A DNA stretch of 64,000 bases from Nannochloropsis oceanica. Taxonomy: Eukaryota > Sar > Eustigmatophyceae > Eustigmatales > Monodopsidaceae. Every line of letters starts with the position of its first letter. Within the stretch, counting starts at the first letter, position 1. Both the position numbers and the translations under genes were made by a program. The DNA is taken from NCBI GenBank assembly GCA_004519485.1, contig CP038118.1:372001-436000 (forward strand). The letters are read 5' to 3'. This document shows, piece after piece, positions 1 to 35,396 of this stretch. The notes under the pieces are model-generated. The model was not told the origin of the DNA, did no database searches, and saw only the letters and a program-made list of their open reading frames with translations.

Positions 1-657
1 TGAGAGCGCGTATTGCAGACGTCGGCCAATATACCCACACCAGTCCCCGTCCCTCGGAAGCAAATAGAACAGCCGGGATCTGCAGAGAAGGGTCAAATCG
101 TCGGCCTGTGGGGAAACCCAAAAAAACGAAGGACTCCTTGATTGGACACACTCACACACACGCGTCATTGCCTTCTGTGTCTGTCCGTCTTTATAGAGGT
201 AGCTGGCGATGCGAGTACCACACGTAGATCACGCGACATACACTTGCGAATGGCAGCGATAACGTACGAGCGGAGGGGCAGGCAGGGAAGCACAGAAAAG
301 CGCAGTTAATGCCGTGACGTTTGGGGCCGTTAGATTTTGAAAATCGGGTTTTAGTTGGTTCATAGGCATTTTTTTTCTTCCCGTCCAATGGGCAATAGGG
401 TGTCAGCATCCTATTGAATGGCAATGTAGATCGCATACTTGAGAGAACCCAGGCATCAAATGCCTACGCATGTCCTTGCTGTACCGAGGGTCATTAGCTT
501 TCATCGCAGCTTGAGCTTGTGCTTCGCTGCGAGTCGACTCCATGGTGTGGTTCAGCAGTGATTCTTTTTCGTGGCTTACGAAAAAGGGCATGTCCTGGAG
601 AATGAGCTTCTGTTTCCTTTCAAGCTGTCAATAGCTTGTCCGTGTCAAGAAAGCGAG
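1..657 (-). promoter_or_regulatory. Promoter and leader of a fifth dynamin-like gene lying left of the window
   Basis: Read on the minus strand this is the same promoter/leader DNA found before the four dynamin-like genes in the window. A TATAAAG box lies at 189-195 (reverse complement), and the conserved 62-codon ORF of the promoters lies at 403-591 on the minus strand. Base 1 corresponds to base 11637 in front of the type II gene at 11708. The inverted repeat is therefore cut by the window edge and another minus-strand dynamin-like gene, probably type II, should begin just to the left. What is seen is the repeat identity; the gene itself is inferred. Confidence 0.75.
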
Positions 658-1030
658 CAGTTGTCAAGCAAATACCACGTTTGGAGCAGTGAAAATATAG
701 TTCTTTGTTGTTTACAGCAGCGACACTATATACGCGGTCGGCAGTTGTAAGGGTGCATAATAGTTTACATTCTTCTTCCAGTTGGTGTGTGCATGTTATA
801 TATCCTGTCTCTTCCCTCTTGAAGGCCGTCTTGTTGTTTTTTACTTCATCATCCGTTTGGGGATAAATCGTCTTTCTATCCCTGTCTGCCTCCCTTTTTC
901 ATTGCATCCGCTTTGACATTGTCTCTGTCTGTTTCTGTCTGCCGCTGTATGCCACTCTTTGTCATGACCTCCCCCTCTTCATCATTGTCTCTGTTTCGCA
1001 TCCTTTACCTCGCATTTTCCTCTTTGTTTC

Positions 1031-1168
1031 TTCGCTTTCTTACAACGTATTGAACTTCTTCATCAAATCTATCAAAGACGCCGCCATGTGACATACGCAC
1101 GCAGCACAGGCTTGCACAACCTCTCTAATCGACGTCCGAAATAAACCATGCGCATGCGCCATCGTCGA
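1031..1168 (-). pseudogene. Internally deleted relic of a type II dynamin 3' end (left copy)
   Basis: Inverted copy of 10470-10607, downstream of the frameshifted type I gene. Read on the minus strand it joins a stretch like the type II stalk segment around LFRKSVREV directly to the type II C-terminus around SLTDLMKK. About 0.6 kb of coding sequence is missing between the two. Confidence 0.65.
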
Positions 1169-1280
1169 TCGACTTGCTGTCGGCTTACTTGTATAAAAAT
1201 ATCTATGTTGATAATAAGTATACATACATACCAACGGTGCAATCCTGAGAATCCCTGCCAACACTTAACTCCGACTCAAC

Positions 1281-3603
1281 CTACGACAGCAAGTCCAACC
1301 TGCCCATCACCTCCTCCAACGCTGCCTTGCGCATAGCGCGCTGCTGGCGGCTCTGTTCGGCCCACAGCTCTTCAGACATGAGCGCGCGGAGCTTGATATC
1401 GTCGTTATACTTGGCCGCCACGACAGACATCAGATCATGCCTGAACTCATTGATCATAACGTTCCTCGTATTCGTCGGAATCGCATAGAATACACGCCGC
1501 AGTAGCAACTGCACATAGTAATGAAGCGTGCACTGCATCACCTGCAGCTCTCTCGAGTGGCTCGACTGCAAAAACACCTTGCCACTTTTGCTCCTCCCCA
1601 GCCCCCCCCTCTCCCCCCGCCCCCCCTCCAGCCCCCCCCTCCACCCCGAGCGCATCCCACATGTCATCCGCCTCCATCCTCCCCGCACTCTCTCCTCTCT
1701 CGTTGGCCGCCACATTCTTCTCAATTTGTTGTGAAATGAACGCCAAATCCACTTCATCGACAAAATTCCAATTCAGCTCCGCTTCTAACAGCCTCCCCAC
1801 CAACCTTTCTGCCTCTTCCTTCTTCGCCGCCTGTACCTGCGTCACATCCCTCATCAACGCCTCAAGCAGCCGCGTATACGGCCTGAACCTCTCCCCCACC
1901 AGCTCCTGCGCCGTGTACTGAAGCATATCGTCCATATCCTGGATCACCCCCCTCGCATACACTCGCAACACAGGGAAAACCAACTCACGAATCGCCTTCC
2001 TAAAGACAGGATGCATCAGATAATTCGCATTCGCAATCACCCCCCTAAACTCCCCCATCTCCTTATTCAACCACTCAGCCACCTCTGCAGATGTATAGCT
2101 AGGCAACGCCCTCCTGGCCTCGGCCTCCCTCCCTTCCACTGCAAGTTGGTATCGAGGCCCCAGATTAAGCTTGCGGTCTTGCCGCGAACTACTGTTGTCG
2201 GCCAACTCCTTCACATCAAACATAACGAAGGTCATCTCCGAACACAGCCTACTAAACACGTCCTCAAACTGATCAAAAACAACAGCAGGGGCCACCGGAT
2301 GTCCTTGCGCCTTACTCATGTGCTTCTGCTGGTGCGCGTGCTGGTGATGGTACTGCTCCTGGTGGAGGTCTGCGCTCAACTCCTCAATCTCTGTTCGTAT
2401 CGCCTGGCTCAGCTCTGGAAGGCGCTGTGTGATACCATTCTTCTGATAATTCAATACCAACGACTTGAGAGAGGCCAATCCCCACCTCTCCTGTCGTAGA
2501 CCTTTCAGCAAGGGGTTGGACGAGAAGAAGGCATGTTCAAATTGCATAACTTCCTGTCGATTAGCCGCAGAGTTGTTGGGGTCCGCGGCACAGACGGCCA
2601 CATAACCCAGTGGAAGGACAAGGGGCTTGTTGCTGTTCATTTGCAGCTTTTCGACGATCCCCATGTCTTTGGTGACCAGGTGTGCTTTGGTCACGACCCC
2701 GATAGTGCGCTTGGAAGCAGGGTCGAGGCGCTTGGCGAGATGGATGATGTCAGCATGGTCAAACACGTCCTTGATTGACAGAACGGCCAAAATGAGCTTG
2801 TTGGGATCCTCATCTTCCTCTAAAACGCGGCGAAGATAAGCTTCTTGTGCAGCGTCGGGCGGACAGCTGAAAGCAGGGAAGTCAATGATGGTGTAGGTGG
2901 GGCCGGAGGGACGCACGACGCGCACATATATCAACCCAGCACTACTCTCGGTGATCGACTCGCTATGGCGATCTGGCATGTAGCGTGATGGTTGCTCAAC
3001 GTACACTCTCTCCTCTTCCTCGATGGTGGCATCCGAGGCCTCATCTTTGTCTTCCATAAAATGACCTGTAGCCGGTCGGAAGCTTCCAGCCACGTTCATC
3101 TGCTCGTTGAGTTTGACAAGCGCCGCAGGCAAATCAGCCGCGTTTTCCAGACGCTTCGTATTTTGCTTGAATAGAGGGTCACTGCCACTGACGAGGACAT
3201 ATTCCTTGACGCAGGTGGGATCGCAGACAATCTTGACCTTGACAGGGCGTCGCAGCCCGCTTGCCCGTGACAAAGGCACGCCAGTCAGGGATTCGAGGAC
3301 GGTGGACTTGCCCGCGCCCTGCATGCCGATGGCCACGATGCCCGATGCTTGCACGGTAATGGGGAGTACCTTTTTAATGTCGTCGATCAGATCCGTCTTT
3401 TCCGTCAAGTGCGTCTCCAGGCTGGTCAAGTCCGTGGGAGTGGCGTCGAGGGACTTGCCCCGCGACTTTGACCTGCCCGAGCGAAACATGGTGAGATTGC
3501 AATGGACTGTGTATACTGTGGAGGTGTGTGGGAGCAGCAGAGTTGGGGTCAGTGGTATGGCGGCACGGTCAGCGGCAGAGAACGAGCTGTCGTACGTCGA
3601 CAT
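1281..3603 (-). pseudogene. Type I dynamin-like GTPase, frameshifted copy
   Basis: Minus-strand copy of the intact gene at 8036-10357, nearly identical along its length. Translation from the ATG at 3603 follows the intact protein up to the Gly-rich linker, where the tract at 1602-1609 has eight G on the coding strand against seven in the intact copy. The frame then shifts and ends at 1447, replacing the GTPase-effector-type C-terminus with about 50 unrelated residues; the correct C-terminal frame is still open at 1281-1763. A homopolymer error in the sequence or assembly would look the same, so the break may not be real. The P-loop is intact and the other GTPase motifs are degenerate, as in the sister copy. 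An alternative start is the ATG with better context 38 codons downstream. Confidence 0.85.
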
Positions 3604-4064
3604 TCTTGTCGGCTGTGTGGCTTGTGGCTGGGGTGGTGTGTGTGGGTACGAGTGAGAGCGCGTATTGCAGACGTCGGCCAATATACCCACACCAGTCCCC
3701 GTCCCTCGGAAGCAAATAGAACAGCCGGGATCTGCAGAGAAGGGTCAAATCGTCGGCCTGTGGGGAAACCCAAAAAAACGAAGGACTCCTTGATTGGACA
3801 CACTCACACACACGCGTCATTGCCTTCTGTGTCTGTCCGTCTTTATAGAGGTAGCTGGCGATGCGAGTACCACACGTAGATCACGCGACATACACTTGCG
3901 AACGGCAGCGATAACGTACGAGCGGAGGGGCAGGCAGGGAAGCACAGAAAAGCGCAGTTAATGCCGTGACGTTTGGGGCCGTTAGATTTTGAAAATCGGG
4001 TTTTAGTTGGTTCATAGGCATTTTTTTTCTTCCCGTCCAATGGGCAATAGGGTGTCAGCATCCT
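3604..4064 (-). promoter_or_regulatory. Promoter and leader of the left type I dynamin
   Basis: Matches the promoters of the other copies but stops at 4064, where it meets the plus-oriented promoter of the next gene. A TATAAAG box is at 3841-3847 on the minus strand. The leader carries an upstream ORF (3569-3820, minus) whose ATG is the first after the TATA box and which overlaps the main start. Confidence 0.6.
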
Positions 4065-4759
4065 CGCTTTCTTGACACGGACAAGCTATTGACAGCTTGA
4101 AAGGAAACAGAAGCTCATTCTCCAGGACATGCCCTTTTTCGTAAGCCACGAAAAAGAATCACTGCTGAACCACACCATGGAGTCGACTCGCAGCGAAGCA
4201 CAAGCTCAAGCTGCGATGAAAGCTAATGACCCTCGGTACAGCAAGGACATGCGTAGGCATTTGGTGCCTGGGTTCTCTCAAGTATGCGATCTACATTGCC
4301 ATTCAATAGGATGCTGACACCCTATTGCCCATTGGACGGGAAAAAAAAAATTGCCTATGAACCAACTAAAACCCGATTTCAAAATCTAACGGCCCCAAAC
4401 GTCACGGCATTAACTGCGCTTTTCTGTGCTTCCCTGCCTGCCCCTCCGCTCGTACGTTATCGCTGCCATTCGCAAGTGTATGTCGCGTGATCTACGTGTG
4501 GTACTCGCATCGCCAGCTACCTCTATAAAGACGGACAGACACAGAAGGCAATGGCGCGTGTGTGTGAGTGTGTCCAATCAAGGAGTCCTTCGTTTTTTTG
4601 GGTTTCCCCACAGGCCGACGATTTGACCCTTCTCTGCAGATCCCGGCTGTTCTATTTGCTTCCGAGGGACGGGGACTGGTGTGGGTATATTGGCCGACGT
4701 CTGCAATACGCGCTCTCACTCGTACCCACATACACCACCCCAGCCACAAGCCACACAGC
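3612..4759. repeat. Promoter palindrome: 453-bp inverted arms around a 243-bp loop
   Basis: The promoter/leader at 3612-4064 (minus) and 4308-4759 (plus) are inverted copies separated by 4065-4307. The loop contains most of the conserved 62-codon promoter ORF. Such a long near-perfect palindrome can extrude or be cut during replication, which fits the observed inversion and amplification history. Confidence 0.85.
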
Positions 4760-4788
4760 AGTCTAAGAATCCAGCTACACACCAAGAG
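4065..4788 (+). promoter_or_regulatory. Promoter and leader of the left type II dynamin
   Basis: Full-length version of the shared promoter. The TATAAAG box is at 4524-4530. The first ATG downstream opens a 71-codon upstream ORF (4551-4766) that ends 22 bases before the main ATG at 4789, in contrast to type I leaders, where it overlaps the main start. The 62-codon ORF is at 4129-4317, upstream of the TATA box. Confidence 0.6.
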
Positions 4789-6945
4789 ATGGCATCGGTA
4801 CTGTCGGCAGAGACAAAGGGTGCCGTCTCTCTCCGGCGGCTTTCCTGGGGCAGTCAATCGGGCAAAGATGCCTTCGATACTAGCGGGCGCGAACGTAAGG
4901 GCTCCGTCGACGCGGCAATGGGATGGGAACTTGACGTACTCGAGGCCCCCCTCCAGGCCAAGACAGACTTCATCGACGACCTCTCCATCCTCTGGCCTCT
5001 TAACAAACAAGTCAAAGCCCCGGGAATCATCGTCATGGGTGCCCACGGTGCCGGCAAATCTTCGATCCTGCATGCCTTGACAGGGATGCCTTTCCCGCAT
5101 TCCTCTGCCTCGGACAGCACTAGGCGCCCCATCAAGATGCAGATCTCCTCCGATCCCACCACCGAGGCAACCTACGCCCTGGTCAGCACCGTCGATCCTG
5201 CTTGCTCCCCGGACAAGACCAGCACCCAGCGTGTCTCTAAGCTGGAGGACCTGTCCCGTGTGCTCGCCAAATTGAACGGAGACACAGAGAGGCGGATTGG
5301 GGAAGAGGAGAGGGGACAGGCGATCTATGTCAAGGTGGTACGGCCTTCGGGAACGGCGTATACGGTGGTGGATTTGCCGGGAGTGGATGAAAAAGATCCG
5401 GAATCCGTCCGTGTGGCGGAGGAGTTTATGCGTGATGAACCCAACAGCCTGATTTTGGTGGTACTGCCCTTGGTAGATGTGTTTGAGCGGGCGTTTCCCA
5501 TGGCGTTGGCCAAGAGGGTTGACCCGGAGAGTCGGCGAACCATCGGGGTGGTGACCAAGACAGACCTTGTTTAAAAAGAGATGGAGGCAGTGGAGAAGCT
5601 TCAAATGACCAGCCATACAGGCGTAAGTCTTCCTTTAGGGTATATTGCTGTGCGTTTGGCCAACGAGAAGGAGAAGCATAAGACTCGCAAGCAATTATTG
5701 GAGAAGGAGCATGCCCTTTTCACGACCAACCCGTTGCTGGCAGGCTTGAGGCCGGAAAGATGGGGCTCGGTGACATTGAAGAAATTAATTGTGGATTACC
5801 AGTGCAATGCCATCGGGCACCTTGTTCCGGATGTCTGTCGTCGGCTGCATGCAGAGCTACGGGAGCTGGAGAAAGAGGAGGAGGAGGAGGCTGCGGCAGA
5901 GCCGGAAGGGAAGAAGGGGATGGGAGGAAAGCTGCTGTCCGACCATCAAGAATTCTTCAGGAAGCTTTGCACGGATGCGAATAGCCTGGGTTTTGAAATT
6001 GGGGAGTTGGCTCTGAGCAGTGACACCCGGAAGGATCGACAGCTCAACTTAGGTGCCCGTCTGACAGGTGCGATCAAAAAGCATGAAGAGGAGGCGCGGA
6101 GAGCCTTGCCGGCAGCTGTTGCAGGCAAGGTGGGCCCTTGGTTGAACCCGTCAGAGGGGGAGGTAGAAGGGACGACTACTGAGCCGCGGGTATATGTGAG
6201 CCGGGAGACGATGTCGCATGATTTGTTTCGGAAGTCGGTGAGGGAGGTGTGCGGCCCTGTGCTGCGTGCGTATGCCACTGCCCTGCTTGGAGAGGCGACC
6301 CTGCAGTTGAAGGAAGTGACGCATGTGCTGGTGCAGGAGAAATTCCAGGAGTTCCCGTGGTTGGTCGAGAGTGTGAAGCATGAGATTAACTTGCTCTTGC
6401 AGAAGAAGAAAGGGGAAGCAGAGAGGGTGCTTGGTCGGATTGTGGCCTCCGAGATGAACTGGTGCTTCTTGAATGAGGCGGATCTGAATGCCGTCGAACG
6501 AGAAGTAGCTCTTAATATGGCGGGTAAGTCCGGGGGGGGGCTGGGGTTTGGAAAGGTGGCGCCGTCGGGAGAGCAGCCAAATCAACAGTTGCACTGGTCG
6601 GCGGAGATGTCGGAGGTGCTGAGTCCGAGTGAGCGAGACGTGGGAAGAAATGGTTTGAGTCGAGTTGACTCGACGAGGGATACGCGTATGCGGGAGTTGG
6701 CGTTGGATGCCTATGTGCGCTTGTTGTTGCGACGGGTGTTTTACGCAATTCCTATGAACATTCGAAACGTGATTTTGAATGAGTTTAGGCGTGATTTGGT
6801 GTCCATGGTAGCGGAGAAATATAACGATGAAACGAAGCTTCGTACGGTCATGTCGGAGGAGTTGTGGAAGATCCAACAGCGACAGCAAAGGGTGGAACGA
6901 AAGGCGTCTTTGACAGATTTGATGAAGAAGTTGGACATGTTGTAA
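4789..6945 (+). pseudogene. Type II dynamin-like GTPase with a nonsense codon
   Basis: Copy of the intact gene at 11708-13864, with few differences. A C-to-T change at 5572 turns the Gln codon at residue 262 into TAA, just after the G4 motif TKTD. The product would be a bare GTPase core of 261 residues. The downstream frame stays open to the normal stop at 6945, so the mutation is young or the copy is still under gene conversion. The upstream part keeps all GTPase motifs. Translation could restart at the ATG at 5581 to give the stalk and C-terminal region alone, but nothing supports this. The sequence at the stop is not in register with a known slippery heptamer. Confidence 0.88.
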
Positions 6946-6965
6946 GGGAGCGATAACGCTAGAAA

Positions 6966-7330
6966 AGGAAAATGCGAGGTAAAGGATGCGAAACAGAGAC
7001 AATGATGAAGAGGGGGAGGTCATGACAAAGAGTGGCATACAGCGGCAGACAGAAACAGACAGAGACAATGTCAAAGCGGATGCAATGAAAAAGGGAGGCA
7101 GACAGGGATAGAAAGACGATTTATCCCCAAACGGATGATGAAGTAAAAAACAACAAGACGGCCTTCAAGAGGGAAGAGACAGGATATATAACATGCACAC
7201 ACCAACTGGAAGAAGAATGTAAACTATTATGCACCCTTACAACTGCCGACCGCGTATATAGTGTCGCTGCTGTAAACAACAAAGAACTATATTTTCACTG
7301 CTCCAAACGTGGTATTTGCTTGACAACTGC
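6966..7330 (+). repeat. Array spacer
   Basis: A spacer of about 365 bp, repeated at 10617-10981 and, inverted, at roughly 657-1021. It links the 3' end of one dynamin-like gene to the promoter of the next. It holds no ORF worth calling; it is A/G-rich and contains short cagacaga-type runs. Confidence 0.85.
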
Positions 7331-8035
7331 TCGCTTTCTTGACACGGACAAGCTATTGACAGCTTGAAAGGAAACAGAAGCTCATTCTCCAGGACATGCC
7401 CTTTTTCGTAAGCCACGAAAAAGAATCACTGCTGAACCACACCATGGAGTCGACTCGCAGCGAAGCACAAGCTCAAGCTGCGATGAAAGCTAATGACCCT
7501 CGGTACAGCAAGGACATGCGTAGGCATTTGATGCCTGGGTTCTCTCAAGTATGCGATCTACATTGCCATTCAATAGGATGCTGACACCCTATTGCCCATT
7601 GGACGGGAAAAAAAAAAATGCCTATGAACCAACTAAAACCCGATTTTCAAAATCTAACGGCCCCAAACGTCACGGCATTAACTGCGCTTTTCTGTGCTTC
7701 CCTGCCTGCCCCTCCGCTCGTACGTTATCGCTGCCATTCGCAAGTGTATGTCGCGTGATCTACGTGTGGTACTCGCATCGCCAGCTACCTCTATAAAGAC
7801 GGACAGACACAGAAGGCAATGACGCGTGTGTGTGAGTGTGTCCAATCAAGGAGTCCTTCGTTTTTTTGGGTTTCCCCACAGGCCGACGATTTGACCCTTC
7901 TCTGCAGATCCCGGCTGTTCTATTTGCTTCCGAGGGACGGGGACTGGTGTGGGTATATTGGCCGACGTCTGCAATACGCGCTCTCACTCGTACCCACACA
8001 CACCACCCCAGCCACAAGCCATACAGCCGACAAGA
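7331..8035 (+). promoter_or_regulatory. Promoter and leader of the intact type I dynamin
   Basis: Shared array promoter. A TATAAAG box is at 7792-7798. The first ATG after it (7819) opens an 83-codon upstream ORF ending at 8070, overlapping the main ATG at 8036 in another frame, which would be expected to lower translation of the main ORF. Upstream of the TATA box is a 62-codon ORF (7396-7584) present in every copy. After about 450 bp of near identity, type I and type II leaders part abruptly a few bases before the start codons. Confidence 0.6.
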
Positions 8036-10357
8036 ATGTCGACGTACGACAGCTCGTTCTCTGCCGCTGACCGTGCCGCCATACCACTGACCCCAACTCT
8101 GCTGCTGCCACACACCTCCACAGTATACACAGTCCATTGCAATCTCACCATGTTTCGCTCGGGCAGGTCAAAGTCGCGGGGCAAGTCCCTCGACGCCACT
8201 CCCACGGACTTGACCAGCCTGGAGACGCACTTGACGGAAAAGACGGATCTGATCGACGACATTAAAAAGGTACTCCCCATTACCGTGCAAGCATCGGGCA
8301 TCGTGGCCATCGGCATGCAGGGCGCGGGCAAGTCCACCGTCCTCGAATCCCTGACTGGCGTGCCTTTGTCACGGGCAAGCGGGCTGCGACGCCCTGTCAA
8401 GGTCAAGATTGTCTGCGATCCCACCTGCGTCAAGGAATATGTCCTCGTCAGTGGCAGTGACCCTCTATTCAAGCAAAATACGAAGCGTCTGGAAAACGCG
8501 GCTGATTTGCCTGCGGCGCTTGTCAAACTCAACGAGCAGATGAACGTGGCTGGAAGCTTCCGACCGGCTACAGGTCATTTTATGGAAGACAAAGATGAGG
8601 CCTCGGATGCCACCATCGAGGAAGAGGAGAGAGTGTACGTTGAGCAACCATCACGCTACATGCCAGATCGCCATAGCGAGTCGATCACCGAGAGTAGTGC
8701 TGGGTTGATATATGTGCGCGTCGTGCGTCCCTCCGGCCCCACCTACACCATCATTGACTTCCCTGCTTTCAGCTGTCCGCCCGACGCTGCACAAGAAGCT
8801 TATCTTCGCCGCGTTTTAGAGGAAGATGAGGATCCCAACAAGCTCATTTTGGCCGTTCTGTCAATCAAGGACGTGTTTGACCATGCTGACATCATCCATC
8901 TCGCCAAGCGCCTCGACCCTGCTTCCAAGCGCACTATCGGGGTCGTGACCAAAGCACACCTGGTCACCAAAGACATGGGGATCGTCGAAAAGCTGCAAAT
9001 GAACAGCAACAAGCCCCTTGTCCTTCCACTGGGTTATGTGGCCGTCTGTGCCGCGGACCCCAACAACTCTGCGGCTAATCGACAGGAAGTTATGCAATTT
9101 GAACATGCCTTCTTCTCGTCCAACCCCTTGCTGAAAGGTCTACGACAGGAGAGGTGGGGATTGGCCTCTCTCAAGTCGTTGGTATTGAATTATCAGAAGA
9201 ATGGTATCACACAGCGCCTTCCAGAGCTGAGCCAGGCGATACGAACAGAGATTGAGGAGTTGAGCGCAGACCTCCACCAGGAGCAGTACCATCACCAGCA
9301 CGCGCACCAGCAGAAGCACATGAGTAAGGCGCAAGGACATCCGGTGGCCCCTGCTGTTGTTTTTGATCAGTTTGAGGACGTGTTTAGTAGGCTGTGTTCG
9401 GAGATGACCTTCGTTATGTTTGATGTGAAGGAGTTGGCCGACAACAGTAGTTCGCGGCAAGACCGCAAGCTTAATCTGGGGCCTCGATACCAACTTGCAG
9501 TGGAAGGGAGGGAGGCCGAGGCCAGGAGGGCGTTGCCTAGCTATACATCTGCAGAGGTGGCTGAGTGGTTGAATAAGGAGATGGGGGAGTTTAGGGGGGT
9601 GATTGCGAATGCGAATTATCTGATGCATCCTGTCTTTAGGAAGGCGATTCGTGAGTTGGTTTTCCCTGTGTTGCGAGTGTATGCGAGGGGGGTGATCCAG
9701 GATATGGACGATATGCTTCAGTACACGGCGCAGGAGCTGGTGGGGGAGAGGTTCAGGCCGTATACGCGGCTGCTTGAGGCGTTGATGAGGGATGTGACGC
9801 AGGTACAGGCGGCGAAGAAGGAAGAGGCAGAAAGGTTGGTGGGGAGGCTGTTAGAAGCGGAGCTGAATTGGAATTTTGTCGATGAAGTGGATTTGGCGTT
9901 CATTTCACAACAAATTGAGAAGAACGTGGCGGCCAACGAGAGAGGAGAGAGTGCGGGGAGGATGGAGGCGGATGACATGTGGGATGCGCTCGGGGTGGAG
10001 GGGGGGGCTGGAGGGGGGGCGGGGGGAGAGGGGGGGCTGGGGAGGAGCAAAAGTGGCAAGGTGTTTTTGCAGTCGAGCCACTCGAGAGAGCTGCAGGTGA
10101 TGCAGTGCACGCTTCATTACTATGTGCAGTTGCTACTGCGGCGTGTATTCTATGCGATTCCGACGAATACGAGGAACGTTATGATCAATGAGTTCAGGCA
10201 TGATCTGATGTCTGTCGTGGCGGCCAAGTATAACGACGATATCAAGCTCCGCGCGCTCATGTCTGAAGAGCTGTGGGCCGAACAGAGCCGCCAGCAGCGC
10301 GCTATGCGCAAGGCAGCGTTGGAGGAGGTGATGGGCAGGTTGGACTTGCTGTCGTAG
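8036..10357 (+). CDS. Type I dynamin-like GTPase with degenerate GTPase motifs (intact copy)
   Basis: A 773-residue dynamin-superfamily protein of Mx/dynamin build: GTPase domain about 60-330, stalk about 340-640, Gly-rich linker about 645-675, and a GTPase-effector-like C-terminus about 680-773. There is no PH domain, transmembrane segment or Pro-rich tail. The P-loop is present (GMQGAGKST, 93-101). The G2 threonine before RRP is Leu (117), the G3 DxPG is DFPA (241-244) and the G4 TKxD is TKAH (305-308). From the family these changes should weaken or abolish GTP hydrolysis and guanine selectivity. A His-rich loop lies at 414-431. The ATG at 8036 is the first in frame; the one at 8150 (caccATG context) is an alternative. 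Next to it lies an intact type II gene under the same promoter sequence, so the two proteins may work as a pair. The membrane or process they act on is unknown. Confidence 0.85.
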   Translation: MSTYDSSFSAADRAAIPLTPTLLLPHTSTVYTVHCNLTMFRSGRSKSRGKSLDATPTDLTSLETHLTEKTDLIDDIKKVLPITVQASGIVAIGMQGAGKSTVLESLTGVPLSRASGLRRPVKVKIVCDPTCVKEYVLVSGSDPLFKQNTKRLENAADLPAALVKLNEQMNVAGSFRPATGHFMEDKDEASDATIEEEERVYVEQPSRYMPDRHSESITESSAGLIYVRVVRPSGPTYTIIDFPAFSCPPDAAQEAYLRRVLEEDEDPNKLILAVLSIKDVFDHADIIHLAKRLDPASKRTIGVVTKAHLVTKDMGIVEKLQMNSNKPLVLPLGYVAVCAADPNNSAANRQEVMQFEHAFFSSNPLLKGLRQERWGLASLKSLVLNYQKNGITQRLPELSQAIRTEIEELSADLHQEQYHHQHAHQQKHMSKAQGHPVAPAVVFDQFEDVFSRLCSEMTFVMFDVKELADNSSSRQDRKLNLGPRYQLAVEGREAEARRALPSYTSAEVAEWLNKEMGEFRGVIANANYLMHPVFRKAIRELVFPVLRVYARGVIQDMDDMLQYTAQELVGERFRPYTRLLEALMRDVTQVQAAKKEEAERLVGRLLEAELNWNFVDEVDLAFISQQIEKNVAANERGESAGRMEADDMWDALGVEGGAGGGAGGEGGLGRSKSGKVFLQSSHSRELQVMQCTLHYYVQLLLRRVFYAIPTNTRNVMINEFRHDLMSVVAAKYNDDIKLRALMSEELWAEQSRQQRAMRKAALEEVMGRLDLLS

Positions 10358-10469
10358 GTTGAGTCGGAGTTAAGTGTTGGCAGGGATTCTCAGGATTGCA
10401 CCGTTGGTATGTATGTATACTTATTATCAACATAGATATTTTTATACAAGTAAGCCGACAGCAAGTCGA

Positions 10470-10607
10470 TCGACGATGGCGCATGCGCATGGTTTATTTC
10501 GGACGTCGATTAGAGAGGTTGTGCAAGCCTGTGCTGCGTGCGTATGTCACATGGCGACGTCTTTGATAGATTTGATGAAGAAGTTCAATACGTTGTAAGA
10601 AAGCGAA
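10470..10607 (+). pseudogene. Internally deleted relic of a type II dynamin 3' end (right copy)
   Basis: About 110 bp after the type I stop codon, reading LFRTSIREV then SLIDLMKKF. These match the type II stalk (LFRKSVREV) and C-terminus (SLTDLMKK) with some 0.6 kb missing between. It shows that a type II gene once stood here and was lost before the present near-identical units spread, since the inverted copy carries the same relic. Confidence 0.65.
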
Positions 10608-10981
10608 GAAACAAAGAGGAAAATGCGAGGTAAAGGATGCGAAACAGAGACAATGATGAAGAGGGGGAGGTCATGACAAAGAGTGGCATACAGCGGCAGA
10701 CAGAAACAGACAGAGACAATGTCAAAGCGGATGCAATGAAAAAGGGAGGCAGACAGGGATAGAAAGACGATTTATCCCCAAACGGATGATGAAGTAAAAA
10801 ACAACAAGACGGCCTTCAAGAGGGAAGAGACAGGATATATAACATGCACACACCAACTGGAAGAAGAATGTAAACTATTATGCACCCTTACAACTGCCGA
10901 CCGCGTATATAGTGTCGCTGCTGTAAACAACAAAGAACTATATTTTCACTGCTCCAAACGTGGTATTTGCTTGACAACTGC

Positions 10982-11707
10982 TCGCTTTCTTGACACGGAC
11001 AAGCTATTGACAGCTTGAAAGGAAACAGAAGCTCATTCTCCAGGACATGCCCTTTTTCGTAAGCCACGAAAAAGAATCACTGCTGAACCACACCATGGAG
11101 TCGACTCGCAGCGAAGCACAAGCTCAAGCTGCGATGAAAGCTAATGACCCTCGGTACAGCAAGGACATGCGTAGGCATTTGATGCCTGGGTTCTCTCAAG
11201 TATGCGATCTACATTGTCATTCAATAGGATGCTGACACCCTATTGCCCATTGGACGGGAAGAAAAAAAATGCCTATGAACCAACTAAAACCCGATTTTCA
11301 AAATCTAACGGCCCCAAACGTCACGGCATTAACTGCGCTTTTCTGTGCTTCCCTGCCTGCCCCTCCGCTCGTACGTTATCGCTGCCATTCGCAAGTGTAT
11401 GTCGCGTGATCTACGTGTGGTACTCGCATCGCCAGCTACCTCTATAAAGACGGACAGACACAGAAGGCAATGGCGCGTGTGTGTGAGTGTGTCCAATCAA
11501 GGAGTCCTTCGTTTTTTTGGGTTTCCCCACAGGCCGACGATTTGACCCTTCTCTGCAGATCCCGGCTGTTCTATTTGCTTCCGAGGGACGGGGACTGGTG
11601 TGGGTATATTGGCCGACGTCTGCAATACGCGCTCTCACTCGTACCCACATACACCACCCCAGCCACAAGCCACACAGCAGTCTAAGAATCCAGCTACACA
11701 CCAAGAG
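10982..11707 (+). promoter_or_regulatory. Promoter and leader of the intact type II dynamin
   Basis: Shared array promoter with a TATAAAG box at 11443-11449. The first downstream ATG opens a 71-codon upstream ORF (11470-11685) that ends before the main ATG at 11708. The 62-codon promoter ORF is at 11047-11235. Confidence 0.6.
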
Positions 11708-13864
11708 ATGGCATCGGTACTGTCGGCAGAGACAAAGGGTGCCGTCTCTCTCCGGCGGCTTTCCTGGGGCAGTCAATCGGGCAAAGATGCCTTCGATACT
11801 AGCGGGCGCGAACGTAAGGGCTCCGTCGACACGGCAATGGGATGGGAACTTGACGTACTCGAGGCCCCCCTCCAGGCCAAGACAGACTTCATCGACGACC
11901 TCTCCATCCTCTGGCCTCTTAACAAACAAGTCAAAGCCCCGGGAATCATCGTCATGGGTGCCCACGGTGCCGGCAAATCTTCGATCCTGCATGCCTTGAC
12001 AGGGATGCCTTTCCCGCATTCCTCTGCCTCGGACAGCACTAGGCGCCCCATCAAGATGCAGATCTCCTCCGATCCCACCACCGAGGCAACCTACGCCCTG
12101 GTCAGCACCGTCGATCCTGCTTGCTCCCCGGACAAGACCAGCACCCAGCGTGTCTCTAAGCTGGAGGACCTGTCCCGTGTGCTCGCCAAATTGAACGGAG
12201 ACACAGAGAGGCGGATTGGGGAAGAGGAGAGGGGACAGGCGATCTATGTCAAGGTGGTACGGCCTTCGGGAACGGCGTATACGGTGGTGGATTTGCCGGG
12301 AGTGGATGAAAAAGATCCGGAATCCGTCCGTGTGGCGGAGGAGTTTATGCGTGATGAACCCAACAGCCTGATTTTGGTGGTACTGCCCTTGGTAGATGTG
12401 TTTGAGCGGGCGTTTCCCATGGCGTTGGCCAAGAGGGTTGACCCGGAGAGTCGGCGAACCATCGGGGTGGTGACCAAGACAGACCTTGTTCAAAAAGAGA
12501 TGGAGGCAGTGGAGAAGCTTCAAATGACCAGCCATACAGGCGTAAGTCTTCCTTTAGGGTATATTGCTGTGCGTTTGGCCAACGAGAAGGAGAAGCATAA
12601 GACTCGCAAGCAATTATTGGAGAAGGAGCATGCCCTTTTCACGACCAACCCGTTGCTGGCAGGCTTGAGGCCGGAAAGATGGGGCTCGGTGACATTGAAG
12701 AAATTAATTGTGGATTACCAGTGCAATGCCATCGGGCACCTTGTTCCGGATGTCTGTCGTCGGCTGCATGCAGAGCTACGGGAGCTGGAGAAAGAGGAGG
12801 AGGAGGAGGCTGCGGCAGAGCCGGAAGGGAAGAAGGGGATGGGAGGAAAGCTGCTGTCCGACCATCAAGAATTCTTCAGGAAGCTTTGCACGGATGCGAA
12901 TAGCCTGGGTTTTGAAATTGGGGAGTTGGCTCTGAGCAGTGACACCCGGAAGGATCGACAGCTCAACTTAGGTGCCCGTCTGACAGGTGCGATCAAAAAG
13001 CATGAAGAGGAGGCGCGGAGAGCCTTGCCGGCAGCTGTTGCAGGCAAGGTGGGCCCTTGGTTGAACCCGTCAGAGGGGGAGGTAGAAGGGACGACTACTG
13101 AGCCGCGGGTATATGTGAGCCGGGAGACGATGTCGCATGATTTGTTTCGGAAGTCGGTGAGGGAGGTGTGCGGCCCTGTGCTGCGTGCGTATGCCACTGC
13201 CCTGCTTGGAGAGGCGACCCTGCAGTTGAAGGAAGTGACGCATGTGCTGGTGCAGGAGAAATTCCAGGAGTTCCCGTGGTTGGTCGAGAGTGTGAAGCAT
13301 GAGATTAACTTGCTCTTGCAGAAGAAGAAAGGGGAAGCAGAGAGGGTGCTTGGTCGGATTGTGGCCTCCGAGATGAACTGGTGCTTCTTGAATGAGGCGG
13401 ATCTGAATGCCGTCGAACGAGAAGTAGCTCTTAATATGGCGGGTAAGTCCGGGGGGGGGCTGGGGTTTGGAAAGGTGGCGCCGTCGGGAGAGCAGCCAAA
13501 TCAACAGTTGCACTGGTCGGCGGAGATGTCGGAGGTGCTGAGTCCGAGTGAGCGAGACGTGGGAAGAAATGGTTTGAGTCGAGTTGACTCGACGAGGGAT
13601 ACGCGTATGCGGGAGTTGGCGTTGGATGCCTATGTGCGCTTGTTGTTGCGACGGGTGTTTTACGCAATTCCTATGAACATTCGAAACGTGATTTTGAATG
13701 AGTTTAGGCGTGATTTGGTGTCCATGGTGGCGGAGAAATATAACGATGAAACGAAGCTTCGTACGGTCATGTCGGAGGAGTTGTGGAAGATCCAACAGCG
13801 ACAGCAAAGGGTGGAACGAAAGGCGTCTTTGACAGATTTGATGAAGAAGTTGGACATGTTGTAA
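11708..13864 (+). CDS. Type II dynamin-like GTPase (intact copy)
   Basis: A 718-residue dynamin-superfamily GTPase. Visible motifs are G1 GAHGAGKSS (84-92), the G2 threonine in STRRP (111), G3 DLPG (195-198) and G4 TKTD (256-259), so it should bind and hydrolyse GTP. The stalk spans about 290-600. A Gly/Ser-rich loop follows, then a C-terminal effector-like segment with the VFYAIPMNIRNVI core (about 640-718). It lacks a PH domain and membrane helices, so membrane contact, if any, would go through a stalk loop as in Mx and DRP proteins. It is clearly distinct from the canonical DRP gene at 30-34 kb. Longer non-ATG ORF extension upstream is leader sequence shared with type I and is not counted. 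Function is not known; Mx-like defence, lipid droplet or plastid membrane work are all open. Confidence 0.88.
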   Translation: MASVLSAETKGAVSLRRLSWGSQSGKDAFDTSGRERKGSVDTAMGWELDVLEAPLQAKTDFIDDLSILWPLNKQVKAPGIIVMGAHGAGKSSILHALTGMPFPHSSASDSTRRPIKMQISSDPTTEATYALVSTVDPACSPDKTSTQRVSKLEDLSRVLAKLNGDTERRIGEEERGQAIYVKVVRPSGTAYTVVDLPGVDEKDPESVRVAEEFMRDEPNSLILVVLPLVDVFERAFPMALAKRVDPESRRTIGVVTKTDLVQKEMEAVEKLQMTSHTGVSLPLGYIAVRLANEKEKHKTRKQLLEKEHALFTTNPLLAGLRPERWGSVTLKKLIVDYQCNAIGHLVPDVCRRLHAELRELEKEEEEEAAAEPEGKKGMGGKLLSDHQEFFRKLCTDANSLGFEIGELALSSDTRKDRQLNLGARLTGAIKKHEEEARRALPAAVAGKVGPWLNPSEGEVEGTTTEPRVYVSRETMSHDLFRKSVREVCGPVLRAYATALLGEATLQLKEVTHVLVQEKFQEFPWLVESVKHEINLLLQKKKGEAERVLGRIVASEMNWCFLNEADLNAVEREVALNMAGKSGGGLGFGKVAPSGEQPNQQLHWSAEMSEVLSPSERDVGRNGLSRVDSTRDTRMRELALDAYVRLLLRRVFYAIPMNIRNVILNEFRRDLVSMVAEKYNDETKLRTVMSEELWKIQQRQQRVERKASLTDLMKKLDML

Positions 13865-15466
13865 GGGAGCGATAACGCTAGAAGAGACAGGGTGATATGA
13901 GACTTATAATAAGGCGAAGAGGCAAGAAGAGGAAGGCGGGTTATGAGAAGAGAGAATCATGATACTTAAGAAACAGACAGAGACAAGAAACAAACAAACA
14001 GAGAGAAGCACGAAGAAGCAGACAGAGAGGCAGACGTAAGCAAGCAGAGACCGAGGTTTTAGAGACAACAAGACAGAATGACAGAGGAGAAGCGGGGAAA
14101 GCCGTGGTTCCGTCTTACTCGCCCATGCATTCGTTACAGATTGAAGGTAGGTAGCCGGAAGATAGTGGCTGCAACCCACGTGACGCGTGAGTGGTGGCAC
14201 AACAGTAAGTTAATCTTCCGAGTGAGTGAAGCACTAGCGCGACGAACAACCAACTGAGCCTCATTAGTACCATGTATGTAATATCAATGTGGCAGAGCGG
14301 AAAAAGAGATCGCGGAGGGCCAAGTAATGTTGTGCCTGAGCGCGTGATCAAAGTAACACAAACAAAAAGAGTGAAGAGCCAGAGAGGGCAGGGACAGGAA
14401 GAACACGCATACGCCAGCTTGGAGAAGAATGTAAACAATTATGCCCCCCATTTACAATTATATATCGCGTATATAATGTCGCTGTAAACAATGAAGACCT
14501 ATAATCTCACTGCTCCTAAAATGATATGATATCAGCTTGAAAGTTGCTCGTTTCTTGGACAAGGAATGGGTAGCTCGATGAGAAATCGAAACTTCTTTTC
14601 CGATTTTGCATAAAGCTTTTTTTTCTAATTCAGATTATCATAATATTTACATTTTTAATTACTATGTGCTGATTCAATGATGACAAAATAGCAAATACAC
14701 GAAGGATAGAAGAACGCGCGAAAACCTTGGGGGGGGAGGTTGGTATCTCGCCTTTTTCCAGCCGCCTTGTCTTGCATCTTTACGCGTTCACTGCACCCAA
14801 AGTTTGTACTTGAGTCCCAATAGCTCGCTCTCAGGACCAGACGAGCGTAGAGAATATCCCGTACAAGGTGGAATCGGCGACCAATACGGCATTGCTTAGT
14901 TGTGGCGCAACTGCTCGATCATGGAGCTGAAACGACGACCACTTCCTCTTCCTCCGTCCCTTTCTCCGTCGCTCATACGCAGAGATGTGGTGCCGGAGGA
15001 GGAGGAGGAGGAGGAGGAGGAGGAGGAGGAGGAGGAGAGAATAAGAAGGGGAAGGAGGGGTTTACGCAGTCCATCTTTTAGAGTCGGTGTTTGAATATGG
15101 CAAAGGAGATGACCGTTCATCGAGTAAGGACAATGTCTATGTGAGCTTGAAAGTGAGTCAGCTATTCCGTGGCGAGTCTAAGCTTAACAATTCAGCCAGT
15201 TACAGGAATAATTTTGGAGAGTACAATGCTGAGGAATTGAGACACTGCCTAGGGGAACGCACGAACTCAAGCCCGCTTGGTGGCGGACATGTTTGAAAAT
15301 TGGCGCGTCGTCGCTGAATCCACCGAGCGTCTCAGAGGCGGAGGAGCGAAAGCACGGCGTTGTCAGTTTTTCCCTTTCACACCACTCCTCAACACGCAGG
15401 ACCGCTTCGAGAGCGACCTACACGAGCCCAAAACTCGCAGCTCCATCCCAACCTCCAACCAGCACT
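13865..15466. other. Intergenic region right of the dynamin array
   Basis: 14415-14615 is a diverged copy of the array spacer and promoter start: the blocks around gaagaatgtaaac, cgcgtatata and cactgctcc recur in the same order and spacing. It probably marks the ancestral right edge of the array. A (GAG)n purine run lies at about 14996-15036. No gene is recognised in the rest. Confidence 0.6.
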
Positions 15467-30406: not shown

Positions 30407-33400
30407 TTATAGCTTAAATGTATTGAAGTCCCTGACCTCATTAACAATCTCCAAGGCCTTCTGCAGCAAAACCCGCATCTCCTGAGAATTCTTGCGCCTC
30501 ATCGCTACGTCCGCCGTTTCTCGCATGCTCTCCCCGATCAAATCCTCCCGGTACAAATTCGAAACCAACTCATTCTGTAAATTATCCTTCGCATGGTTCA
30601 CCAAGAAATACATTATGGTCTTAGGCACCAAATCCATGAAATTCTTCCGGACCACATCAAAATAACTCGCCGTCAAGGCCTTGATAATCTCCGTCTCAAT
30701 CTTCTCCCGATCATTCGGCCCATCACCATACCTCATCACCTCCGGGACCTGCGGCAACTTCACCACCGCCTCCCTCCCTCCCTCCCTCCCCCCATCTCTC
30801 GCTCCTACTCCTCCGAATCGCCCACTTCCTCCCAACCCCCCCCCGGCTCCTCCATTCCCTCCCTGCGCCCGAGCCCCAAAAATGTACGACATGATCCCTC
30901 CCCCCTTGTCTCCACCACTCGTGGCCGCTGCCACGCCACTCGCGACACTGCTACTGCCCATCCCAACGCTGCTGCTGCTGTTCATCAACCCTCCCCCATT
31001 GGCGTTACTGCCCCCACTCATCCCTCCATCCTCCATCCCCAGCCCCACCCCTCGACCTCCCATTGCCCCTCCTCCCGCCCCCCCCCCTACCACCCCGGTA
31101 TCCTTCTTTCTTCCCCCTCCCACATCCCCCCTCACAGGGCTCCCCCTCTCCTCCCCACCCCTCCCTCCCTCCCTCCCTCCCTCTCTTCCCCCCGCATTCC
31201 CCTTTTCTTGGGCCATTCTCTCCATGAGCTGAGCCACAGCCCGGGAGCCCCCAATGAAGTCGGGGTGGGAGGTGTTGATGTACGCTAGCTCGATGTTGAT
31301 CAGATTTGAGATCATCACCTGACCGGGGGAAGAGAGGGGGGTAGAGGCCGGTGAGTTAGGAGGGTCAGAACGGCAGGGTTTCGTGCAGCCAGCTCGATGC
31401 TGATCCGGCTCGAGACCAGACCATCGTCCACCTGAAAGAGAGCAAGTGCGAAGGAGCTAAATCTAAGTAAGACTCATCTGCACTCTCAAAAAGTGGATCT
31501 GTTTGTTCTGACCCCAGAAGCATTCTGCACTTCTTCCCCCCCCCCCCTCCCTTCCTCTCTCCCTCCTATTCCTCTCACCTGGGTGGGCCCCACGCACTTG
31601 CGGAGCATGTGGTTCACCACCTCCACCACCCGGTCCCTCAGCTCGGGGAAGCGCGTCAGCTCCGTCGTCTCGCACTGAGCGGCCATACGCAGCAACTCGT
31701 CGAAGACCAAGTCCACGCATTGGAGGCCGGGCTGGGGGGGGGGATATGGAGGGATATGGGAATAAGGAAAGGAAGGTGAGAGTCAGTTCTGGCACTGGTC
31801 GGGTGCCCGCAGGGGCTCATCGACCACTAAAGGCCATGTCCAGGCGTGCTAGGCCAGGCTAGTGAGGAAGTGAGGGGGTGGGAAGGACGGAAGGACAGAA
31901 GGAGGGAGGATAAGGGTGAGGGCTGGGCACCCAGTTCGATGTACAGCAGTACATGGCAATAGGTCAGTGGCACTTCCCCCTCCTCCCCTCTCCCGCGCCC
32001 CCTTCCCTACCTGCTCCAACCGCGAAATCTGTCTTTTCACCAGCAGATCGAAGCTGATCTCCGGCACGAACAACGCCGGCCGCGTCCCATTGGCGTTGCA
32101 GATTGCCGTCCGTATCTCCTCGTCCGTCAGGGTCGCGAACGGGTCAATGCCCATCAAGGACTTCCCGAATATCTCACTAAAAATGTAATTAATCCTCGCC
32201 CCTCCATACAACTCCAACGTCTCACCACCCCCCACAATCCCTCCCTCCCGCCCTCCCTCCCGTCCAGTCACGAAATTCCCCTTCCCCTCCACTGCGCTTT
32301 GGAAGGTGGAGGCAAAGCGCGACAAGAGCCCCAGCATGGTGCCCCCCAGCGTGGCCCGCGAGAGCTCAGTCGTGGGCTCGCCGAGGGCGTCCAGCTCGCG
32401 GGCCACCTCCATGGTCATCGCTTGGATGCGGGATTTGATCTCAGGGAGGCAGTCGCTAGGAGGGGAAGGGAGGGAGGAAAGGAGGGAGGGTGAGGTGAGC
32501 AGTGAAATTCGAAGGTAGTTGGATGCCTTTCTTTACAACTAACTCCCTCCCTCCCACCCTCCCTCGCTCCCTCCCTCTTCCTCACCGGATGTGGTGCATG
32601 AGAATGTTGTTGAGCATGCGCGTCAAGGTGGGGGTGGTGCACTGCTTCAGCAGCGACCGATATACGGGATGGGCCTTGAAAAAACTCGATTCCCTCCGCA
32701 GGGCCTCGCGGATAGTCAGGTTGTTGTCTATGTCGCGCTGGCCGCGGTTCACCACTGCTACGTAGCCGATCCGGAGGGGAATGACACGATTCAGCAGCAC
32801 GTCGGCGGCGTCTGTGCCTAGAGGGGTGGAAAGGGGGTGGTTGGGTTTCCCGAGGCGTGAGAATCCTCTTCCTAAATGAACAAAGAATCAAACAATTACA
32901 CATTGCTTTCTGAGAAAAGCAGGACACACTTAAGACCCGGGGAGCACCACTCGCATCTACCTGGGTCCATCAAGTCCATCTTAGTCAAGACGCCGATCGT
33001 CCGCAGCCCCTCGGGGTCCACTTCCCGCGCAAGCTTCAGCGAGTCTGAGTTCGCGATGTCTTTAGCAGGGAGAAGGGAGGAGGGGGAGGGAGGGAGGGCT
33101 TGCTTTGTGAGAGGAGTGGCCACGCATGTTTTGATGGCACGTACGTTTTCATGAAAACAGGCCACGTCACGCGCACCGAAAGAAGTGCCCTCGTCTTCAA
33201 GACAGTACCTGTGTTGGCCGCCGTGACTGCCAAGACGATCGAGTTGGGGTTAGCGATGTACGCCAGGCACATCTCCCGGATTTGGGCCTGGTCGGTGGGC
33301 AGGGGAGATAGGTCATATAGGTGCGAGAAAGACAAGAGTAAACGAATAAATTGCTTGTTGAATCACCTCTTGACATCCTCCCTCCGCCCTCGTGCCCTCC

Positions 33401-34335
33401 CTCCCGCTCTCCTCACCTCGATATCCACCGGCTGGTCCCCAACGGACACCTGGAGTGGACGCGGCGTGGCATACATGAATGACTCGTGAGCGAGACGTCA
33501 GTGAGACCTCCCTCCCCTCTTCCCGCCCATATTCTCCCCTATGACTTGGTGAGGAAGCGTCATGTGCTTCCCACTCTCCCCCTCCTTCACTCCCTACCTC
33601 CCTCCCTCCCTTACCTTGGTGATGCCCGGCAAGTCTACTAGGGTCAGGTTCAGGACGTAGGGCGAGTAAATCTTGAGATTGATGCTCTTGGCACTGATCC
33701 CCTTATTCTTTCCCGTCAATCGATCCGTCTCCTTCTTGATCTCCTCCCGAATCTCCATGAAGTCATAAAACCTCTCTCCAGCCCGATGCAGAAACTCCCC
33801 CCATTCCTTCCCCTCCGGCCCGCCATGCGCGCCCTCCCTTCCGCCGTCGTCCTCCCCGGCGCCGCGAAGGAAGGCCGTATTGTAGAGCTGGAGGATGAGA
33901 GGTCGGCGGGTAACAATGCCTGTGCCGCGTGGCAAGAAGTCACGACCGACTGGGGGGGGAGGGAGGAAGGGAGGGAAAGAAGAGAAGGATGAATAATTCT
34001 GCGGTCGACGTCTCAATGAAATTTGTCGAAGCCATGCTTCCCTCCCTCCCTCTTCTACCATCCTCCCCTCTTTTCCTTCCTTCCCTCCCCCTCTTTTTAC
34101 CGATATGCTCCAGCACGGAGCTCTTTCCCGAGGACTGGCTGCCGATCACCACGATTTGGGGCAAGTCCAGGGGATGCTTCCCGATGGCCGCGAAGACGTC
34201 TTGCAACTTATTGACAATCGGGATGAGTTGCTGCATCCCTCGGTCGTGCAACAAGGAAGAGGAAGAGGAAGATGAGGAGGAGGTTGAGGTTGAAGAGGAG
34301 GAGGAAGGAGGCGTGGCGGCCCCTCCGGCAGCCAT
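30407..34335 (-). CDS. Canonical dynamin-related protein (DRP1/Dnm1 type)
   Basis: Nine exons: 34335-34101, 33949-33615, 33449-33417, 33287-33209, 33059-32961, 32817-32586, 32455-32011, 31731-31579, 31318-30407. They total 2523 nt, 840 residues. After a Ser-rich N-terminus come G1 GSQSSGKSS (65-73), G2 in GIVTRRP, G3 DLPG and G4 TKMD. The stalk has RGQRDID and [16 protein letters not shown] Gly/Arg-rich variable domain replaces the PH domain, and the GTPase effector domain ([15 protein letters not shown]) ends the protein. This build matches Drp1/Dnm1 and plant/algal DRPs that pinch mitochondria, peroxisomes or plastids. Introns start with G-rich runs. The start ATG is the first in frame in exon 1; an upstream extension without ATG exists. 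It serves as a reference for how far the 1-14 kb dynamins have diverged. Confidence 0.9.
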
Positions 34336-35396
34336 GTGTGTATGACTGTGGTGTTGCGTGGGTTGAAAACGCTTGTTGCTACTACTGCTGCTGCTGCTGC
34401 TTCCGTTACTGCTGTTGCTGTTGCTGCTGAGGTCGGCTCTGGGTGGCTTGGGGACGCGCAAGGAAGGGGGTAGTTCGGGGTTGCTGCTACCGGCTGTAGG
34501 GGTTGGTGGTTGTCATAGAGAAGTGAGGAGCGGATGTTGATTAAATGTGCAAGAATACGTTGATTGCATATTGCAGGGTACCACGTGTGATCTGCGTCTG
34601 ACAATTCGAGAGTCAAATCCTAAGGCCTCATTCCTCGTGCATGAAAACGCGGTCAAATGTCAATGAGGATGAAATAAGCGCTTGCAATCATGTTGCATGT
34701 GAAGCGTCTGGCGGCAGTACAGGGTACGGTAACAAGTGCTCGCTTTGGGAGGCAAAAAGGCAAACAGAAATGCATTTTTTTAGGCCAATCTAACAACCCA
34801 CGGACATCATGCCCGTAGACCTGTTCAAAGAGCCCTGCGCTCGCGTGGGAGGATGAGTGACCGAACGTAGGGAAAGCGCAAAGGGACAGGGAACGTGAAT
34901 TTTTTCTACTCACTTACGTCCGAGTCCACGGCTGGAATCTAGCGAAGCCAGGACTGCTGCTGCTGGTAAATGCTTTACTATATGTTGGTGTTTGGTGCTG
35001 CGCCTGTTTATGCGTGGTGGCACTTTTTATTGTAAGCAGCAGAAATGATGTCCCTAAGGGGCGTGGTGAGGGAGGGAAACCGGGGAACAGGAAGAAGCTG
35101 AGCGAGGCGTATGTATGGCCATCAGGCTTGACAAATCCGCCATGAGCAATGTAAGTGTTCGAGGACCTCAAAGCATGGCGCCATTGTTGGAATAAATTAG
35201 GGACACTGGGCCAAGGGGCAGAAGAAGCAAGGCGCCATCGTCGCTCAGCGATGGTGACCCTATGATGAGAAGGGCGCACAACCGACTTGCCGCACATGAG
35301 CACAGACACCAAGAGCTTCCGTCCAAACCACGCGCTCGCTGACCTCATTTCCTTCAATCTGTCACCATCGTTCAGGTCTCCTCCTCTCGTGTAAAT
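34336..35396. other. Divergent intergenic region
   Basis: 1.06 kb between the dynamin-related protein and the SEC-C protein, presumably holding both promoters. No ORF with family resemblance or RNA gene was recognised. Confidence 0.45.

Follow-up and report, generated by a model that had tools for sequence, protein, structure and literature searches.

Dynamins are usually viewed as driving membrane fission through symmetric, mutually activating G-domain dimers. Two paralogue pairs come closest to the locus described here. In Entamoeba histolytica, DrpA and DrpB are the product of a lineage-specific duplication, contain Dynamin_N, Dynamin_M and a GED, and are described as forming hetero-oligomers, presumably as a mixed complex (PMC5647421). 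In Dictyostelium, DlpA and DlpB are approximately 36% identical, depend on each other for reaching the cleavage furrow, and have been reported in mixed oligomers (PMC6721605). Beyond these points of likeness, there are clear differences from our pair. A GTPase-deficient form of either Entamoeba protein is dominant negative, both proteins are treated as GTPases, and no natural loss of the G2-G4 motifs is described in the available part of that account (PMC5647421); the GED and middle domain are unrecognised in the Dictyostelium proteins, and the available part of that publication does not report motif loss (PMC6721605). A limited literature search returned no description of a eukaryotic dynamin pair with one pseudo-GTPase member. 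For the interpretation of single residues, the best guide is human DNM1L, where T59A, G149A and D218A each alone leave GTPase activity unmeasurable, as does Q34A, while S35A and D190A keep basal activity and lose liposome stimulation (PMC3747075).

We analyzed a window of 64,000 nucleotides of the Nannochloropsis oceanica genome (GCA_004519485.1, contig CP038118.1), in which two different dynamins, here called type I and type II, lie on the forward strand. The intact type I copy (8036..10357) encodes 773 aa, in a frame that is open from 7949 to 10357 with the ATG at 8036, and the intact type II copy (11708..13864) encodes 718 aa, in a frame open from 11600 to 13864 with the ATG at 11708. The two proteins are 37% identical. 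Both contain a Dynamin_N G domain followed by Dynamin_M, with matches above the cut-off in type I (E=5e-16 and E=6e-12) and in type II (E=8e-23 and E=3e-15), as expected for the dynamin/Vps1/Drp1/Mx class. The GED of type II (residues 636-718; 13613..13861) matches Pfam with 16.5 bits, below the cut-off of 21.4, and that of type I was recognised only through its alignment to type II, being co-linear with the GED of another dynamin of the window (see below). No PH domain was detected in either protein and an NCBIfam search gave nothing specific. The closest solved structures by sequence are all eukaryotic, namely the protein named Dynamin (6fgz), Vps1, dynamin-1, Drp1 and Mx. Judging from these sequence matches, both proteins are eukaryotic-type dynamins with G domain, middle domain and a probable GED, apparently sharing with human DNM1L/Drp1 and dynamin-1 the G domain-stalk-GED layout, the P-loop Lys, the switch-II Asp and the G4 Lys.

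The initial annotation had compared the pair with bacterial dynamin pairs, a likeness that turned out to be poor. Campylobacter Cj-DLP1 and Cj-DLP2 are also encoded by adjacent genes, but they belong to the bacterial family, both of their P-loops are needed, and neither is a pseudo-GTPase subunit (PMC6104087), while every listed structural relative of our proteins is a eukaryotic dynamin. A search of 84,980 prokaryote genomes with the type I/type II alignment and the GED found no relatives at the sensitivity applied, and neither did one of viral contigs, for which the two proteins, their alignment, GED and G-domain blocks, and the third dynamin were the queries.

This third dynamin (~30410..34460, reverse strand) is a canonical, intron-rich, Drp1/Vps1-like gene about 16 kb from the dynamin array, and was used as an internal control. 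Its exons were joined by eye, so alignments to it are approximate. It carries the motifs GSQSSGKSS, IVTRRP, DLPG, TKMD and VVNRGQ, and is canonical at every residue changed in type I or type II, which indicates that the changes are specific to the pair. It is split by many introns, whereas type I and type II are each encoded in a single unbroken frame of 2.2-2.3 kb.

In type I, the motifs read GMQGAGKST, SGL-RRP, DFPA and TKAH. The P-loop (8312..8338) keeps the Lys and the Gln, with a Gly at the Ser41 position; a Leu replaces the switch-I Thr (8384..8386) beside a deletion of 3 residues; the Gly of the G3 motif is changed to Ala in DFPA (8756..8767); and the Asp of the G4 motif is changed to His in TKAH (8948..8959). 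These changes had been pointed out in the initial annotation and are confirmed here, the shorter switch I being an addition. The P-loop Ser and the G5 Asn are also missing, and the trans-loop Asp is replaced by Val. As type I is changed at the equivalents of DNM1L Thr59, Gly149 and Asp218, it is very probably inactive, and its Gly to Ala replacement in DxPG is the very substitution assayed as G149A. The earlier proposal that such losses stop hydrolysis is thus well supported, each of the three DNM1L mutants being null (PMC3747075). Type I is very probably a pseudo-GTPase, in which the fold and the phosphate-binding Lys would be kept, and the coordination of Mg2+ and the catalytic water, together with normal guanine selection, would be lost.

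Type II (GAHGAGKSS, ST-RRP, DLPG and TKTD) retains the switch-I Thr, an intact G3 (DLPG, 12290..12301) and an intact G4 (TKTD, 12473..12484), as had been noted before. It is not canonical, however, since His-Gly replaces the dynamin Gln-Ser in the P-loop (11957..11983), the trans-loop has Val at the position of dynamin Asp180 and an Asp at the residue before it, as in type I, and the G5 Asn is missing in both types (AVRLANE and AVCAADP against VVNRSQ). In terms of DNM1L, type II lacks the equivalents of Gln34, Ser35, Asp190 and Asn246. Within the dynamin superfamily, GBPs and atlastins hydrolyse GTP without the P-loop Gln. With these residues, type II may still bind GTP and probably hydrolyse it slowly, normal assembly-stimulated hydrolysis looks unlikely, and calling this protein a GTPase is an assumption.

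Type I seems to be maintained, considering the codon-position bias across the deep split between the types and the equal rates of their G domains. Differences between type I and type II at codon positions 1, 2 and 3 are 0.40, 0.27 and 0.62 in the G domain, and 0.31, 0.19 and 0.53 in the GED. In Tajima relative-rate tests with the approximately aligned third dynamin as reference, type I and type II have 23 and 21 changes in the G domain (p=0.88), and 31 and 16 in the stalk (p=0.04), type I being faster there. Around 7 stops would be expected in a type I frame drifting neutrally at 0.1 substitutions per site, and the intact copy has none. A fold under selection with its catalytic residues lost is what these patterns point to, and we consider it highly probable that type I is a pseudo-GTPase maintained by selection. 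The initial annotation had called the changes old and maintained because frameshifted and intact type I copies share them. Maintenance is borne out by the codon-position bias and the relative rates; the argument from shared copies fails, since these copies (99.8% identity) arose by recent duplication, so that shared motif changes are expected in them and carry no information on age.

The array in which these genes lie contains a second copy of each. The second type I copy (1281..3603, reverse strand) has an extra G at 1609, which shifts the frame ahead of the GED, and the second type II copy (4789..6945, forward strand) has a TAG at 5572-5574 (residue 262), just past the G4 motif. The two type I units are in opposite orientation and show 9 differences over 4064 bp (99.8% identity), none of which alters an amino acid ahead of the frameshift. 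Between the type II copies there are 4 differences, including the TAG at 5572. The second copies are recent duplicates, and the frameshift and the nonsense codon could be sequence errors.

All 4 gene copies are preceded by 0.46-1.1 kb of near-identical upstream DNA (98-99.8%), in spite of the deep divergence between the coding regions of the two types. This shared region is found ahead of the intact type II copy (10558..11689, forward strand; 98-99.8% identical to the other spacers), with a TATA-like CTATAAAG near 11442, and again from the end of type II to the start of type I (6905..8037, forward strand; 98% identical to 10558-11689). In the head-to-head spacer (3602..4770), it is copied on each side of a junction near 4063, about which the left half of the array is inverted. 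A short hairpin adjoins this junction. A simple fold-back assembly artefact was rejected as the whole explanation, since the two sides of the junction differ, with type I on the left and type II on the right; smaller assembly errors are possible. Downstream of type I there is a type II fossil (10486..10606, forward strand), a stalk piece fused to the C-terminal end, which matches 13134-13197 at 83% identity and 13824-13872 at 86%. Inverted and direct repeats, almost identical in sequence, span positions 1-13886, and the array extends past the left edge of the window. Past the last type II gene, an older spacer piece (14383-14565, 75% identical) marks the old end of the array. The history of the cluster is one of repeated duplication, deletion and homogenisation.

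The two types are most alike in the GED (64% identity), against 48% in the G domain and 34% in the stalk (GED vs stalk, p=5e-6; GED vs G domain, p=0.02). The GED is also where type II resembles the third dynamin least (14% identity in an approximate alignment). Recent gene conversion was rejected as the origin of the similar GED, since codons at identical residues have diverged to a like extent in the GED and the G domain (0.60 and 0.62). A common derived GED would be expected of two proteins that assemble into one polymer or have a binding partner in common, and we take it as a hint in this direction. Together with the shared promoters, this unusually conserved GED makes co-assembly of type I with type II plausible. 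That type I joins type II specifically as a regulatory subunit is a proposal to which we give about an even chance. Single-chain AlphaFold2 models of both proteins, built from a two-sequence alignment, have a mean pLDDT of 39 and pTM of 0.27-0.29, at which an interface is not assessable.

We suggest, as the best explanation and with confidence evenly divided, that type I is a non-hydrolysing subunit that mixes with type II and regulates it. Type I and type II would be anciently diverged paralogues of a eukaryotic dynamin-related protein, kept in a continually rearranging tandem cluster and built of a G domain, a bundle-signalling element with the stalk, and a GED. Their near-identical promoters would most likely lead to co-expression, contacts through stalk and GED would give mixed hetero-oligomers of type I and type II, and type I within them would dilute or time the type II cycle. 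The steps of this scheme, that is, loss of activity, co-expression, co-assembly and a regulatory role, are what we infer from the comparisons above. A maintained pseudo-GTPase beside an active paralogue, both without the canonical trans-activating residues, would offer a natural test of a dynamin polymer in which only some subunits hydrolyse, and also of how the active subunits get triggered.

A rather unlikely alternative is that the paralogues became subfunctionalised with no partnership. Type I would then work alone as a pseudo-GTPase scaffold, such as an adaptor for membranes or the cytoskeleton, and type II would be a dynamin in its own right, with adjacency and promoters left by tandem duplication and unequal crossing-over. 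Such a history would fit a dynamic array with near-identical inverted and direct copies, a type II fossil and homogenised spacers, where unequal crossing-over could have produced the shared promoters incidentally, and the faster evolution of the type I stalk could mean that it has a different assembly partner. However, the GED is the region most alike between the two types and yet the most derived in relation to a canonical dynamin, as would fit a contact surface common to both proteins.

It is also conceivable, though improbable, that the two proteins form an obligate heteromer by reciprocal degeneration. The complementary losses suggest this reading, as type I keeps the P-loop Gln and lost G2-G4, type II shows the reverse, and the Ser/Asp trans network is missing in both. 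In that case, activation of type II would depend entirely on type I, by way of either a rewired G-interface or the shared GED, and the pair would represent an activator/pseudo-GTPase dynamin, unlike dynamins that activate themselves.

Quite improbable, in our evaluation, is a host-defence pair similar to the mouse IRG proteins, from a tandem family with fast turnover, in which type I, as a regulator with altered nucleotide binding, would restrain the effector GTPase type II on self membranes, possibly against algal viruses or parasites. The birth and death of genes in the array, where broken copies and fossils are left, and the presence of Mx among the matched structures agree with it, as does the regulator/effector logic of the GMS and GKS IRG proteins, a multigene family of dynamin-like GTPases split in this way (PMC4837601). 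On the other hand, matches to Mx are no closer than those to dynamin or Vps1, fast turnover is not specific to immunity, and the IRG proteins are a separate family of smaller GTPases whose regulators have a changed P-loop Lys, a residue that type I retains. Finally, that type I is becoming a pseudogene, with its motif losses as decay, is highly unlikely: a frameshift in one of the two type I copies and a nonsense codon in one type II copy would fit, but the broken copies are no older than the last 0.2% of divergence and may even reflect sequence errors, the intact frame runs through 773 codons without a stop, the G domain shows no more change in type I than in type II, and the codon-position bias is strong.

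The whole window has a GC content of 53%, and 53.8% is reported for the N. oceanica genome (PMC3499364). Its other genes include a histone deacetylase, Paf1, a DOT1-like methyltransferase and a SAC-domain protein; with these genes and the many introns that split the third dynamin, the window reads as eukaryotic. GGREGG-type repeats, which are common in eustigmatophytes, are found in several introns of the window, including those of the third dynamin.
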